The notes under the pieces are model-generated. The model made no database searches, was not told where the DNA came from, and saw only the letters and a list, made by a program, of their open reading frames with translations. A stretch of 32,432 nucleotides of DNA from a virus: the IMG/VR virus record IMGVR_UViG_3300042566_000223, positions 1-32,432 of that record; one strand, 5' to 3'. Positions 21,643 through 25,083 of this stretch are shown here, in pieces. Position 1 is the first letter of the stretch. Each line of letters opens with the position of its first letter. A program made the translations under genes and the position numbers.

Positions 21643-21892
21643 CCAAATACACCAAATACACCACCCAAAAATCAATATACATCGGCTGAAACATAGACCT
21701 GGCGCGGATATACACGAAAAACACCAAAAACACACACCAACTTTCTCTCTCTCTTTCTCTATCTCTTTATTTATATAGATAGATATAAATTATATATCTT
21801 ATAGAAATACAGTGTATATGGTGTATATCCTTTGTGGGCGCGGGTTTCAAATACACAAACGCGTGTATTTCGGTGTATTTGAACGTGTATTT
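21643..21892. repeat. Iteron cluster with AT-rich core, candidate replication origin
   Basis: Nine copies of the octamer AAATACAC / ATATACAC or its reverse GTGTATTT / GTGTATAT occur here: 21645, 21654, 21708, 21812, 21821, 21849, 21863, 21873 and 21885. Copies left of centre mostly point one way and those on the right the other. Two pairs are tandem with a 9-base period. A pyrimidine tract (21741-21768) and an AT-only stretch with TATATAGATAGATATAAATT (21771-21804) sit in the middle. It is directly downstream of the primase-helicase gene. The whole 296-base gap contains no convincing gene. Confidence 0.6.
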
Positions 21893-21906: not shown

Positions 21907-24123
21907 TTACTTTTTACTATATTTACCATGTCCCAAACGATTGAACAATGATGCGAATTCCTTACTCCGGATTGATGTTTCGAATCTACGCGGTGGCAAG
22001 TTGATCCGCTTGCATGTTTCAACGGCATCCTTTTTTGTGAATTCATCCGGCAACGCCAGGTAAAGGTTGTTTAATTCCGTTGATAAACCGGTTTCCGCGT
22101 TTTCAAATAATTTGCTGATCAATCGGATTGTTGTTTCGGTGTAGTATTTATACAACCGGTTTGCAACGATTACGATATCTTTTGTGATCACCGGGTTTGT
22201 CGGGTTTTGTAGTATTGCCACAACCTGGGTAAGCCTGGCAACATAATTCGACATCTTGGCATGCGTACCCAAAATAAAACCATCTAAACGATTGGTAATC
22301 CGTTCGTTGGCTTCGGTTAATTGAAGTTTATGATTATGTCGGTAAAGTTCAACCGCTTCATCCGTAATGGCGATTTTTATAGGTTGAATTTCCCCGGTGT
22401 TGAACCGCCGCGCCTGGTCGAACAATTTTCCCAAAATGTTTGTCCAATCGGAATGGATTTCCCGGCGTTTACTAAATGGATCGGATTCGATGTTTAGTAA
22501 TTTATAATCCGATTCGCACATCAAAAAACGGGATGCGAATCCGGAATAGATTTTATCCTTTGAAAAAATTTTGTGTAGGCGTTCCGTTTGCGTTCCCATC
22601 AAAAGATTGATGTTCATGTTTTTTACAACACGTTCATTTTCCCGGTTGGCCCTGGATTGAACGTAACGGCCCCCGTTGAAAGCCTGCGTCATAAACGAAA
22701 TTGAATTGTTGTCATTCTTATAAGCCGCGGCGTTCATGATATCCTCGGCTTCATCAATGTATATTCCAATCCCGGATGGTTGATCCATACAAAGGGCGAT
22801 ATATCCCTCGGTTGTTCCATCCTTTAAAAATGGAATGATGCGCTTTGGTTTGGGTTCAAAAAAATGTTCTTTTGATTTCATGGCCTTTGCTTTGCGCGCC
22901 TCCCATTGTTTTACCGCTTCCTCATGGTTTGCGTCCATTTCATCCAGGATCGGTTTCATCGGGTTTTGGCACATCGTTTCATAGGCCGGTGATTTACCAA
23001 CGGACATGGGCGCAACAAGGAAACAAAACAAAATGTTTTTTGCTCCGCCGATGTCGGATGTGTACGATGAGCCGGCAAGGGATGATATTGTCCACAACCC
23101 GGCGGTTGCCAAAAATTCCGGCGACATGGAACGTTCGTTGGCAACCTCGAACAATGATTCGCGGATGTGTTCCGGGAATATTTCAAACGGAAATTTTATT
23201 TCAACATTTTGTTTTATTCCGATATAATTCAAAACGGCGTTCCAATCGCGCTTTAAATGATAGTACAAAATAAATGATGGCGGCAATGACCATATTTCAA
23301 AATCATCTTTGGTATGCCAATTTGGAAAATTTAACATGGACGCGGAAAATATCAAAACCCGTTTTGATCTTGGGTAAACCTTTGCGGATATTCCATTCGA
23401 TTCCGATCCTTTGCGCCGGTATGCGATGAACCTATCTTTTTTACTATATCGGAAATTTTTGATGGGAATCAAATCGATTGTTTCCAAAAGGATTTCGAAT
23501 GATTCATCCGATATTTCATTATCATATTTGGCCAATTCCGTTTCGAATCCTTTGGGATAATTAACGGCTTTTTGATTCGGATCAAAATCCGGTTGATATT
23601 CATTGAAATATTGCGATACACCAATCAAATAATTATATTCATTATCCGTCAAAAATTCAACATCATTCATCGATTGATGAACTTCAACATAGTTAGGCGT
23701 TGGATATGTGTATATCAACGGGCCGTTGCAATACAATGCGATTACTTCGCGTCCTTCATTGGATTGCGCCAGGTTCATTTTTTTTGGCAATTTATCATAT
23801 CTTAAAAAGACATGATATCCATTGCTCCGCGTTCGTTCAATGAATAGTTTTCCCAATAAATCCGGCGCATCGGCGTTCACCATTTGCATCCATTTATCGA
23901 AAATGGTTTTGTCCGATGTGTTTTTCAAATCAAAATCAAGGGCCGCCCATCCGTTACCGGTTACGATTTGCAACGCGTTATCCGTTGGCAACAATTCAAA
24001 CTTTGTTTCCGGATTGCTCCAACCTTCCTTTTGATATTTCGGAACATTGTTTTCAATATCCCATTGGAACGGAATCGCGCGCAATCCTAAATCCAGGTAA
24101 TCGTTGTAAATGTGTTTTAGCAT
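21907..24123 (-). CDS. Primase-helicase (PrimPol-like plus DUF3987-like ATPase), 738 aa
   Basis: The N-terminal domain has the bifunctional primase-polymerase pattern: WAALDFDLKN (Asp63, Asp65) and ERTRSNGYHVFLRY (His104). The second half has an ATPase with a Walker A-like APMSVGKSP (371-379) and Walker B GIYIDEAEDIM (453-463), resembling the DUF3987 helicase-like group. The C-terminus is a small helical, perhaps winged-helix domain (EFTKKDAVETCKRINLPPRR). It would prime and unwind phage DNA. Its ATG overlaps the stop of the 68-residue gene, and the candidate origin lies just downstream. Confidence 0.8.
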   Translation of the reverse strand: MLKHIYNDYLDLGLRAIPFQWDIENNVPKYQKEGWSNPETKFELLPTDNALQIVTGNGWAALDFDLKNTSDKTIFDKWMQMVNADAPDLLGKLFIERTRSNGYHVFLRYDKLPKKMNLAQSNEGREVIALYCNGPLIYTYPTPNYVEVHQSMNDVEFLTDNEYNYLIGVSQYFNEYQPDFDPNQKAVNYPKGFETELAKYDNEISDESFEILLETIDLIPIKNFRYSKKDRFIAYRRKGSESNGISAKVYPRSKRVLIFSASMLNFPNWHTKDDFEIWSLPPSFILYYHLKRDWNAVLNYIGIKQNVEIKFPFEIFPEHIRESLFEVANERSMSPEFLATAGLWTISSLAGSSYTSDIGGAKNILFCFLVAPMSVGKSPAYETMCQNPMKPILDEMDANHEEAVKQWEARKAKAMKSKEHFFEPKPKRIIPFLKDGTTEGYIALCMDQPSGIGIYIDEAEDIMNAAAYKNDNNSISFMTQAFNGGRYVQSRANRENERVVKNMNINLLMGTQTERLHKIFSKDKIYSGFASRFLMCESDYKLLNIESDPFSKRREIHSDWTNILGKLFDQARRFNTGEIQPIKIAITDEAVELYRHNHKLQLTEANERITNRLDGFILGTHAKMSNYVARLTQVVAILQNPTNPVITKDIVIVANRLYKYYTETTIRLISKLFENAETGLSTELNNLYLALPDEFTKKDAVETCKRINLPPRRFETSIRSKEFASLFNRLGHGKYSKK

Positions 24124-24323
24124 GGGATATTTGATTTGAATGGTTCACGTTTGCTTAATTCGTCACATAGCACATCGGCTTCATGCCAATCCGCCGCAAT
24201 ACCTACCAATCTATATTGGTGATCTTGTTTTAATCTTGTTACATGCCAATTTGATTTGATGTATTCCGTCATTGTTTCAATGTGGAATCCGCCTTGCTCG
24301 AAAGAAAATAAAATTGCAATCAT
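24117..24323 (-). CDS. 68-residue protein before the primase
   Basis: The ATG at 24323 lies only seven bases after the T-run of the small RNA terminator; an internal ATG at 24272 (MTEYIKSNWHVTRL) is an alternative. The protein is a short alpha/beta sequence (RLVGIAADWHEADVLCDELS) with no recognised family. Its end overlaps the primase start. If read-through of the upstream terminator controls it, this gene and the primase could be attenuated together. Confidence 0.55.
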   Translation of the reverse strand: MIAILFSFEQGGFHIETMTEYIKSNWHVTRLKQDHQYRLVGIAADWHEADVLCDELSKREPFKSNIPC

Positions 24324-24329
24324 AAAGAT

Positions 24330-24377
24330 AAAAAAACCTTTACGGGTTCAGGCGTGCAGGCCATCCCCCATAAAGGT
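24330..24377 (-). terminator. Terminator forming the 3' half of the small RNA
   Basis: An 11-bp stem (24367-24377 with 24336-24346, one G-U pair) is followed by seven T residues (24330-24336). It also terminates any transcript coming from the nuclease and recombination genes upstream, so reading into the primase gene needs read-through or anti-termination. Confidence 0.8.
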
Positions 24378-24412
24378 CGAAAATGTTTTTGTTAATCGTT
24401 CTGCACAACGAT
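24330..24412 (-). ncRNA. Candidate small RNA with two hairpins and complementary loops
   Basis: Read on the minus strand from about 24412: stem AUCGUU / AACGAU with hexaloop GUGCAG (24401-24406), a 17-base linker, then a large hairpin closed by ACCUUUAUGGG with CCCGUAAAGGU (one G-U). Inside are a 4x4 purine-rich internal loop (GGAU opposite UGAA) and a 3-bp stem holding the hexaloop CUGCAC (24354-24359). The two hexaloops are exact reverse complements, so a kissing interaction is possible. A seven-T run follows. A Bacteroidota-type promoter ends about seven bases before the first stem, so a transcript of about 83 nt is predicted. I do not recognise it as a known RNA class. Confidence 0.55.
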
Positions 24413-24416
24413 ATTT

Positions 24417-24887
24417 CTACAAACTTACGATTTTATCATATAACTCAAAAAATTGTTCCGGTGTTCCGATGAATTCATAAATGCCACCGGCTTTGCGTTC
24501 CCGGATTTGTTCCGCTAATTGATCCGGTCGCGGTTTGTCCCGGCCTACTTTAATTTCAATTTGAACCGCTTTTCCAAAAATTGTACAGGAAATATCGGCA
24601 CTGCCTTTCCGCGTTGTTGATGGTAGCCACTTTTTAACGCCTATTTTTGCCCCGGATGGTTGTTTCTCAACGCCATCTATCAACCGCCCCATTACGTTAA
24701 TCCTGGTGGCTCGGTGGCCTTTCCATGATAGGAAATTACAGATGTATGATGTGAGGCCGTTTGCCGTATTAAACGGCGGAACCTTTGGTTCTAAATAATA
24801 CCCGTCTTTGTATGCCGATGGATATTGAATCTTAAACCATTCCAGGTGCGCGGACATGTAACGGGGGTGATCAGTTTTTTTTGCCAT
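24417..24887 (-). CDS. VRR-NUC-like / PD-(D/E)XK nuclease, 156 aa
   Basis: The nuclease core is KGSADISCTIFGKAVQIEIK (94-113): Asp98, then Glu111-x-Lys113, with Gln123 in the following helix. This fits VRR-NUC-type phage nucleases that act on branched DNA. ATG at 24887 (MAKKTDHPRYMSAHL) is preferred over an upstream frame that would deeply overlap the previous gene; it still overlaps by 17 bases. The last codons contain a promoter (24420-24449) for the small RNA. A Holliday-junction or mismatch role would suit the recombination block. Confidence 0.7.
   Translation of the reverse strand: MAKKTDHPRYMSAHLEWFKIQYPSAYKDGYYLEPKVPPFNTANGLTSYICNFLSWKGHRATRINVMGRLIDGVEKQPSGAKIGVKKWLPSTTRKGSADISCTIFGKAVQIEIKVGRDKPRPDQLAEQIRERKAGGIYEFIGTPEQFFELYDKIVSL
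24420..24449 (-). promoter_or_regulatory. Bacteroidota-type promoter for the small RNA
   Basis: On the minus strand TTTG (24446-24449), exactly 18 bases, then TAAGTTTG (24420-24427), matching TTTG / TAnnTTTG. It overlaps the end of the nuclease gene and the expected start site falls at the base of the first RNA hairpin. Confidence 0.6.
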
Positions 24888-25083
24888 AGTATTCGTTGTA
24901 AAATTGTTCAGCCATAAATAAAGCATCTGCTTTTTCCATGTCGGTTGTGCCGTTCCAATATGCATTTTTTATCTGCTCTTTCTCCATTGCTTTTGCTTGT
25001 TTCCATAAATCACGAATTGATATATCCATATCATGTTTTTGCCATTCGCTTTGCAACCATTCAACTGCCGTTTGTTGTGCCAT
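24871..25083 (-). CDS. 70-residue hypothetical protein of the early block
   Basis: It starts MAQQTAVEWLQSEWQKHD and contains LWKQAKAMEKEQIKNAYWNG, a pattern that recurs in small, uncharacterised Bacteroidota phage proteins. It is helical and charged, ending YNEYYGKKN. No function is known to me. The stop overlaps the start of the nuclease gene; three bases separate it from the membrane protein gene upstream. Confidence 0.75.
   Translation of the reverse strand: MAQQTAVEWLQSEWQKHDMDISIRDLWKQAKAMEKEQIKNAYWNGTTDMEKADALFMAEQFYNEYYGKKN

Follow-up and report, generated by a model that had tools for sequence, protein, structure and literature searches.

The window analysed here is a whole virus record of 32,432 nucleotides, and between a nuclease-like gene and a pair formed by a 68-aa ORF and a primase gene (24323 down to 21907) it holds a short unit resembling a promoter, a hairpin and a terminator in close succession (Table 1). 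This raises the question if the unit is a small RNA gene in its own right, a control element of the genes behind it, or an ordinary terminator beside which a hairpin stands by chance. The phage encodes a portal protein, a terminase, a RecT-like protein and a DUF3987 helicase/primase. Its host is most likely a flavobacterium-like member of the Bacteroidota, because the terminase is 51% identical to terminases of Flavobacterium psychrophilum phages and the window has promoters of the TAnnTTTG type. The 68-aa ORF gave only a weak match, to phrog_6104; a possible counterpart of 67 aa occupies the same pre-primase position in two relatives (L033 and L035).

Table 1. Features of the element and of its neighbouring genes, in positions of the window
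Feature	Position	Strand	Remarks
Nuclease-like gene	24417-24965	minus	upstream neighbour of the element; stop codon TAG at 24419-24417
-33 element TTTG	24446..24449	minus	18 nt before the -7 box; inside nuclease coding sequence
-7 box TAAGTTTG	24420..24427	minus	Bacteroidota TAnnTTTG type; overlaps the 3' end of the nuclease gene
Transcription start (+1)	~24415	minus	predicted from a -7 box at -12 to -5
Hairpin 1	24395..24412	minus	6-bp stem, hexaloop GUGCAG (24406-24401); fold and covariation
A-rich linker	24379..24394	minus	16 nt; fold
Terminator hairpin	24335..24378	minus	12-bp outer stem, 4x4 internal loop, 3-bp inner stem, hexaloop CUGCAC (24359-24354)
Apical part of terminator	24347..24366	minus	4x4 internal loop GGAU (24366-24363) / UGAA (24350-24347)
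U-tract of intrinsic terminator	24330..24336	minus	seven T; first two U paired in the outer stem
68-aa ORF	24117..24323	minus	follows the terminator directly and opens the replication operon; ATG at 24323
DUF3987 helicase/primase gene	21907..24123	minus	presumably the controlled gene

At its upstream end the element has the two boxes of a Bacteroidota housekeeping promoter (TTTG and TAnnTTTG) at proper spacing, here TTTG-18-TAAGTTTG. In promoters of F. johnsoniae, which follow the consensus TAHHTTTG, G is avoided at position 4 (PMC6847099); the window box is atypical in having a G there. The -33 motif lies within nuclease coding sequence and therefore may be conserved for the protein's sake. 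At the other end, a GC-rich hairpin followed by a U-tract forms an intrinsic terminator that ends 7 nt before the next ATG, and its loop is the pairing partner of the loop of hairpin 1. The internal loop below it formally allows tandem G-A pairs. The element folds with an MFE of -28.3 kcal/mol (z = -3.5), and MFE and centroid folds give one and the same structure. A sequence-only reading of the locus had proposed this succession of promoter, hairpin 1 and terminator, including the GUGCAG/CUGCAC loops, the 4x4 internal loop and the seven T, and sequence and fold bear it out; its promoter stands as well, whereas the start that it placed at 24412 moves to ~24415, given that the -7 box occupies positions -12 to -5 in Flavobacterium (PMC6847099).

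On the operon strand of the window, no other -7 box was found from 27317 to 24427 and on to the replication genes. On the plus strand, where boxes of the type TAnnTT[TC]G were searched, none reads across the element, the nearest being at 24642 and pointing away from it. By inspection, neither the linker nor hairpin 1 pairs with the 5' arm of the terminator, so that no alternative antiterminator pairing is visible. A short ORF within the terminator (ATG GGG GAT GGC CTG CAC GCC TGA) was considered as a leader peptide and dismissed, since in relatives its frame is shifted by differing loop lengths, so that it is not conserved.

Taken alone, the window does not lift this layout above chance: a permissive descriptor scored 59, against 52-65 in shuffles, so that significance rests on the relatives. 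Comparison loci were fetched by protein only (nuclease, primase and a downstream DUF4373 protein). The leaders used for the statistics, chosen solely by their downstream replication protein, number 88 and form 46 clusters. A terminator adjoins the start codon in 33 clusters; the other 13 either have directly abutting genes or escaped the parser. An automatic choice of hairpin 1 by stability picked the wrong hairpin in many leaders and was replaced by a test that chooses no hairpin, in which the length of perfect complement between the terminator interior and the upstream region is recorded. With 20,000 partner shuffles as reference, a complement of at least 6 nt was present in all 33 clusters (permutation mean 9.0, maximum 19), one of at least 7 nt in 28 of the 33 (mean 3.6, maximum 11) and one of at least 8 nt in 18 of the 33 (mean 1.6, maximum 8). 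Judged by this comparison, the loop complementarity is far more than chance. The same holds ahead of an unrelated replication gene family (KDPAVLLYTSDF, DUF1376-like), where 8 of 10 leaders have a complement of at least 7 nt; the two misses (L238 and L259) turned out to be members on inspection and were then verified, and a further leader of the KDPAVLLYTSDF family that had not been parsed (L271) is a member by eye.

Scans for the pattern itself agree with this picture. A strict descriptor that includes the -7 box returned 163 matches in 53 clusters, a few of which are evidently chance, within 2.17 Mb, against 4.3 matches expected from shuffles. A scan that fixes only the internal loop gave chance as well as true matches, and every complete match with a U-tract also had a complementary upstream loop. 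When a genome collection was scanned with the window-type core, the single match, in a Spirochaetales MAG, had no hairpin, terminator or complementarity and was discarded as chance.

Covariation was assessed in an alignment (A4) of 12 window-type elements, which have the internal loop GGAU/UGAA and six kissing pairs. As such pairs are not expressible in a covariance model, they were counted directly. All six change on both sides at least once, one-sided changes do not occur, and every cell is Watson-Crick. Covariation of the kissing pairs amounts to 0.83 against 0.18 in shuffles, with slid versions nowhere near. Manual trimming of the rows to the structure works in favour of the latter, but conserved flanks fix the loop to within one base. 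The stems of hairpin 1 and of the terminator covary, too. For example, the terminator hairpins of the window and of L005 differ by one loop base, for which the loop of hairpin 1 carries the compensating change. With covariation this strong, a functional role of the loop-loop contact is hardly in doubt. The idea of an ordinary terminator beside a chance hairpin, which the window-only descriptor score would allow, is refuted by covariation and complementarity in the relatives, and its probability is close to nil.

The sequence-only reading is thus partly supported. The unit of promoter, hairpin and terminator has conserved and covarying loop complementarity ahead of replication genes: homologues, far from keeping neither stem nor loop complementarity, show the opposite. 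The concern that the UGCA palindrome accounts for the complementarity is lifted, since the loops of most relatives are not palindromic (e.g. GTGAAACC/GGTTTCAC, GTAGGAT/ATCCTAC and GTGGTAG/CTACCAC). The GGAU/UGAA internal loop is invariant in the 12 window-type elements. Among 67 distinct terminators it is found 11 times in forward and 7 times in flipped orientation; in L262, L280, L217, L225 and L288 the flipped loop, with UGAA on the 5' side and GGAU on the 3' side, sits in otherwise different sequence. A metabolite riboswitch was considered and rejected, as no sequence is conserved outside the internal loop.

The pairs of complementary loops, which we call codes, are diverse, complementarity having survived across dozens of different sequences. 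Downstream of the nuclease we found GTGCAG/CTGCAC, GTGCCG/CGGCAC, GTGAAACC/GGTTTCAC, GGTGAAAGC/GCTTTCACC, GTAGCAT/ATGCTAC, GTGGAAG/CTTCCAC and GTACGAG/CTCGTAC; further codes are GTGGTAG/CTACCAC and CTGCCA/TGGCAG, the code ATACCAGC/GCTGGTAT precedes a primase with a different upstream gene, and some twenty more occur among the relatives. The element of L003 is 100% identical to that of the window over 92 nt, yet its flanks are only 92% and 88% identical. Conversely, L007 and L006 have flanks ~84% identical to those of the window, yet carry another element subtype in the same slot. Such comparisons with the window element (24335-24412) suggest modular exchange of elements between phages. Four genomes (L036, L045, L046 and L177) have two elements with different codes, as would be expected if each acts on itself. 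In L036 they lie at 540-690 and 2100-2195, and the genes behind the paired elements of the four genomes encode a GIY-YIG protein, a zinc-ribbon-like protein, DUF4373 and DUF3987.

Code diversity also bears on a different proposal, self-recognition in trans for copy control or superinfection immunity. Here the freed RNA would rise with genome number, kiss the nascent leaders of the same phage and cut expression of the replication genes, and the codes would act as incompatibility-like groups. A short RNA with hairpins at both ends would suit this role, and so would codes that diversify with complementarity kept, even among near relatives, and that differ between the two elements of one genome. 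Swapping of subtypes in the same slot among close neighbours could reflect selection for trans specificity, which counts against an attenuator acting in cis. On the other hand, both complementary loops lie in one RNA, on one strand; no -7 box was found antisense across the element, and the window record gave no Phage_integrase match (the phage genome being possibly incomplete there), which makes immunity of a prophage less obvious.

The geometry of the element carries the argument further. Of 37 leader clusters, 30 have a -7 box, compared with 6.5% in shuffles, and it mostly precedes hairpin 1 by 3-10 nt; with +1 placed five nt downstream of the box (PMC6847099), the predicted 5' end of the RNA coincides, or almost coincides, with the start of hairpin 1. 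In most relatives the linker measures 13-18 nt. Two architectures can be distinguished, one in which a short hairpin 1 is combined with a tall terminator and one in which these proportions are reversed, the linker of the latter usually containing a small additional hairpin. Heights of hairpin 1 and terminator are inversely correlated (Spearman -0.64, a statistic that ignores relatedness), and their sum is 23.5 +/- 3.1 layers compared with a permuted sd of 5.2, none of 20,000 permutations being as tight (relatedness again ignored). The trade-off persists within the architecture with a short hairpin 1 alone. The linker becomes shorter as the terminator grows, which in part comes from the fuzzy boundary between hairpin and linker. 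Because hairpin heights and linker length are mutually adjusted, we think of one strapped intramolecular kissing structure, and loop pairing within one molecule is thereby favoured. Pairing in trans alone would not need linker length and hairpin heights to be constrained. This constraint, together with the searches that found no antisense -7 box and no integrase match, speaks against trans self-recognition as the main function; we regard it as the main rival, though an unlikely one.

As a reading with about an even chance of being right, we propose that the element is a cis-acting kissing-loop attenuator heading the phage replication operon. Sequence comparison shows its basis: an RNA predicted to begin with hairpin 1 or a few nt ahead of it and to end in the intrinsic terminator, with loops complementary over 6-10 nt and compensatory changes between them. 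RNA polymerase from the element's promoter would mostly halt at the U-tract and free an RNA of ~85 nt (in the window) to ~120 nt. Readthrough would yield the operon mRNA and thus the replication proteins, the start codon following 9-12 nt past the terminator. With no further -7 box found from 27317 to 24427 and no room for a promoter between terminator and ATG, replication gene expression should need such readthrough, which may start from the element's promoter, from an upstream one or from a non-consensus one. The kissing complex would alter the efficiency of the terminator or access to the adjacent start codon; the loop-loop pair being the only conserved regulatory contact, it must set one of the two or both. 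We lean towards a complex that stabilises the stop, although this sign is a guess, as is relief of the stop in early infection via some factor or condition. What counts against an attenuator is that by inspection no antiterminator pairing is visible that could relieve the terminator, and that the gap to the ATG is longer in named isolates. Of the three roles suggested by the sequence-only reading (kissing regulator, copy-control RNA, attenuator), the last nevertheless fits the anatomy best, copy control in trans being less likely. The description as a free-standing gene could not be established: in most relatives only 9-12 nt separate the 3' arm of the terminator from the next start codon, and this short gap, along with the lack of another -7 box from 27317 on, makes the element equally the leader of the replication operon.

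The same short gap suits a translational switch, in which the hairpin beside the start codon would gate ribosome access to the replication gene, with hairpin 1 as its lock, much like the repZ pseudoknot, and the U-tract would be incidental. Initiation in Flavobacterium does depend on structure around the start codon (PMC6847099). However, a U-tract of 5-9 T after a GC-rich stem, found in nearly all members, is a textbook terminator, and the gap to the ATG is longer in named isolates (~50 nt in Flavobacterium and Cellulophaga phages), which leaves this proposal quite improbable. Almost as improbable is an RNA polymerase-binding leader similar to the put RNAs, i.e. a two-hairpin RNA that docks on its own polymerase and changes the response to this and later terminators. 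The model here is putL of phage HK022, a stretch of ~70 nt with two stem-loops that directly follows an early promoter and acts without protein (PMC9378689). The element resembles it in size, two-hairpin layout and promoter proximity, and its conserved internal loop GGAU/UGAA could point the same way; the likeness to put RNA is one of size and place only. The put RNA suppresses termination elsewhere and contains no terminator, whereas the second hairpin here is itself one. Moreover, almost no primary sequence is common to all subtypes, some of which polymerase contact should conserve, and neither sequence similarity nor, in Rfam, a family link to put was found.

Returning to the attenuator in cis, the system that would work most alike is the replication leader of ColIb-P9 and other I-complex plasmids, in which a leader loop finds its pairing partner beside the rep start and an interior loop is of importance (PMC10724649). 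Both there (SLI, repZ pseudoknot, Inc RNA/RNAI) and in our phage element, a loop near the 5' end of a replication leader has its complement shortly before the rep start codon, here in the terminator hairpin 9-12 nt before the ATG; loop specificity diversifies, and an interior loop lies below the kissing loop, as in RNAI. In contrast to the plasmid leaders, our element has a terminator loop as the partner and no conserved leader peptide, and as no antisense gene was found it falls outside the I-complex class. By analogy, it may be viewed as a variant among leader attenuators with RNA pseudoknots. Attenuation in pT181 also employs a terminator just ahead of the replication gene; it requires a countertranscript and pre-emptor pairing, neither of which is visible here. 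The CI RNA of phage P4, which confers superinfection immunity in trans, is a small RNA derived from a replication-operon leader; transcription stops prematurely in that leader, which also contains complementary stretches. CI RNA matures by processing and works through complementary sites at a distance, whereas in our element one predicted loop pair kisses the terminator itself. Finally, ColE1 RNAI/RNAII and TAR/TAR* share with it fully complementary loops (6-7 nt), but these kiss between two RNAs.

For the family as a whole, the comparison points to phages of Bacteroidota, mostly with Flavobacterium-like hosts, and to a position just ahead of DNA-replication genes. Pattern matches obtained blind to gene content are found mainly ahead of replication or early genes (DUF4373, DnaG-type primase/helicase, DUF6291, a DUF1376-like initiator, an HNH gene, a helicase), and the replication genes served (DUF3987, DUF4373, DUF1376-like, DnaG-type primase) are mutually unrelated. 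Named isolates carry the element ahead of a primase operon: Flavobacterium phages lillamy9-1, hattifnatt9-1 and stinky9-1 (GTGAGACG/CGTCTCAC), Cellulophaga phages phi10:1 and phi19:1 (GTACGAC/GTCGTAC) and Nekkels_1 (ATTGGAA/TTCCAAT), and Tenacibaculum phage JQ (GCATCCTAC/GTAGGATGC). Because the strict descriptor demands an ATG within ~20 nt, it had missed the elements of the Cellulophaga, Tenacibaculum and lillamy phages, which were spotted by eye and then verified. With the descriptor, no element was found in the DUF4373-bearing Porphyromonas phage005b and Flavobacterium phage 1/32, nor in Flavobacterium phages FpV9 and 6H.

Rfam 15 gave no match in the whole window at the gathering cut-off and none up to E=5 in 24200-24550, and ten diverse member loci matched tRNA only. 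The element is also unlike every named class testable here, in agreement with the sequence-only reading, and no account of it was found in the literature searched, which covers part of the field. We thus regard it as an apparently undescribed RNA control element and probably an RNA family of its own. To our knowledge, very little is known about early gene control in Bacteroidota phages, and here an apparently undescribed RNA class, built from promoter, hairpin and terminator, heads the replication operon of many of them, including culturable phages of Flavobacterium, Cellulophaga and Tenacibaculum. A programmable kissing pair that sets the strength of a terminator would also be of use as a regulatory part. 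Should the doubtful trans alternative hold, this would be a widespread phage RNA class whose coded kissing loop in the terminator lets each early operon recognise its own transcript, with the freed RNA sensing genome copy number and the codes forming compatibility groups among Bacteroidota phages; this would be an RNA-only counterpart of repressor immunity.

Complementary loops could also form rings or dimers, and the element adjoins replication genes, so that a scaffold RNA assembled by loop-loop contacts like phi29 pRNA, or a structure serving as replication primer or origin, was weighed. We consider either highly improbable: Rfam gave no match, including to the phi29 pRNA model, the element precedes replication rather than packaging genes with no terminase nearby in the window, two copies per genome stand before different genes, and a separate iteron-like cluster lies ~2.5 kb off, at 21644-21892. 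This cluster, directly downstream of the DUF3987 primase gene, consists of AAATACAC/GTGTATTT repeats in both orientations, accompanied by AT-rich and purine-rich tracts, and is a candidate replication origin. In relatives we noticed ORFs that resemble translations of the same kind of repeat.
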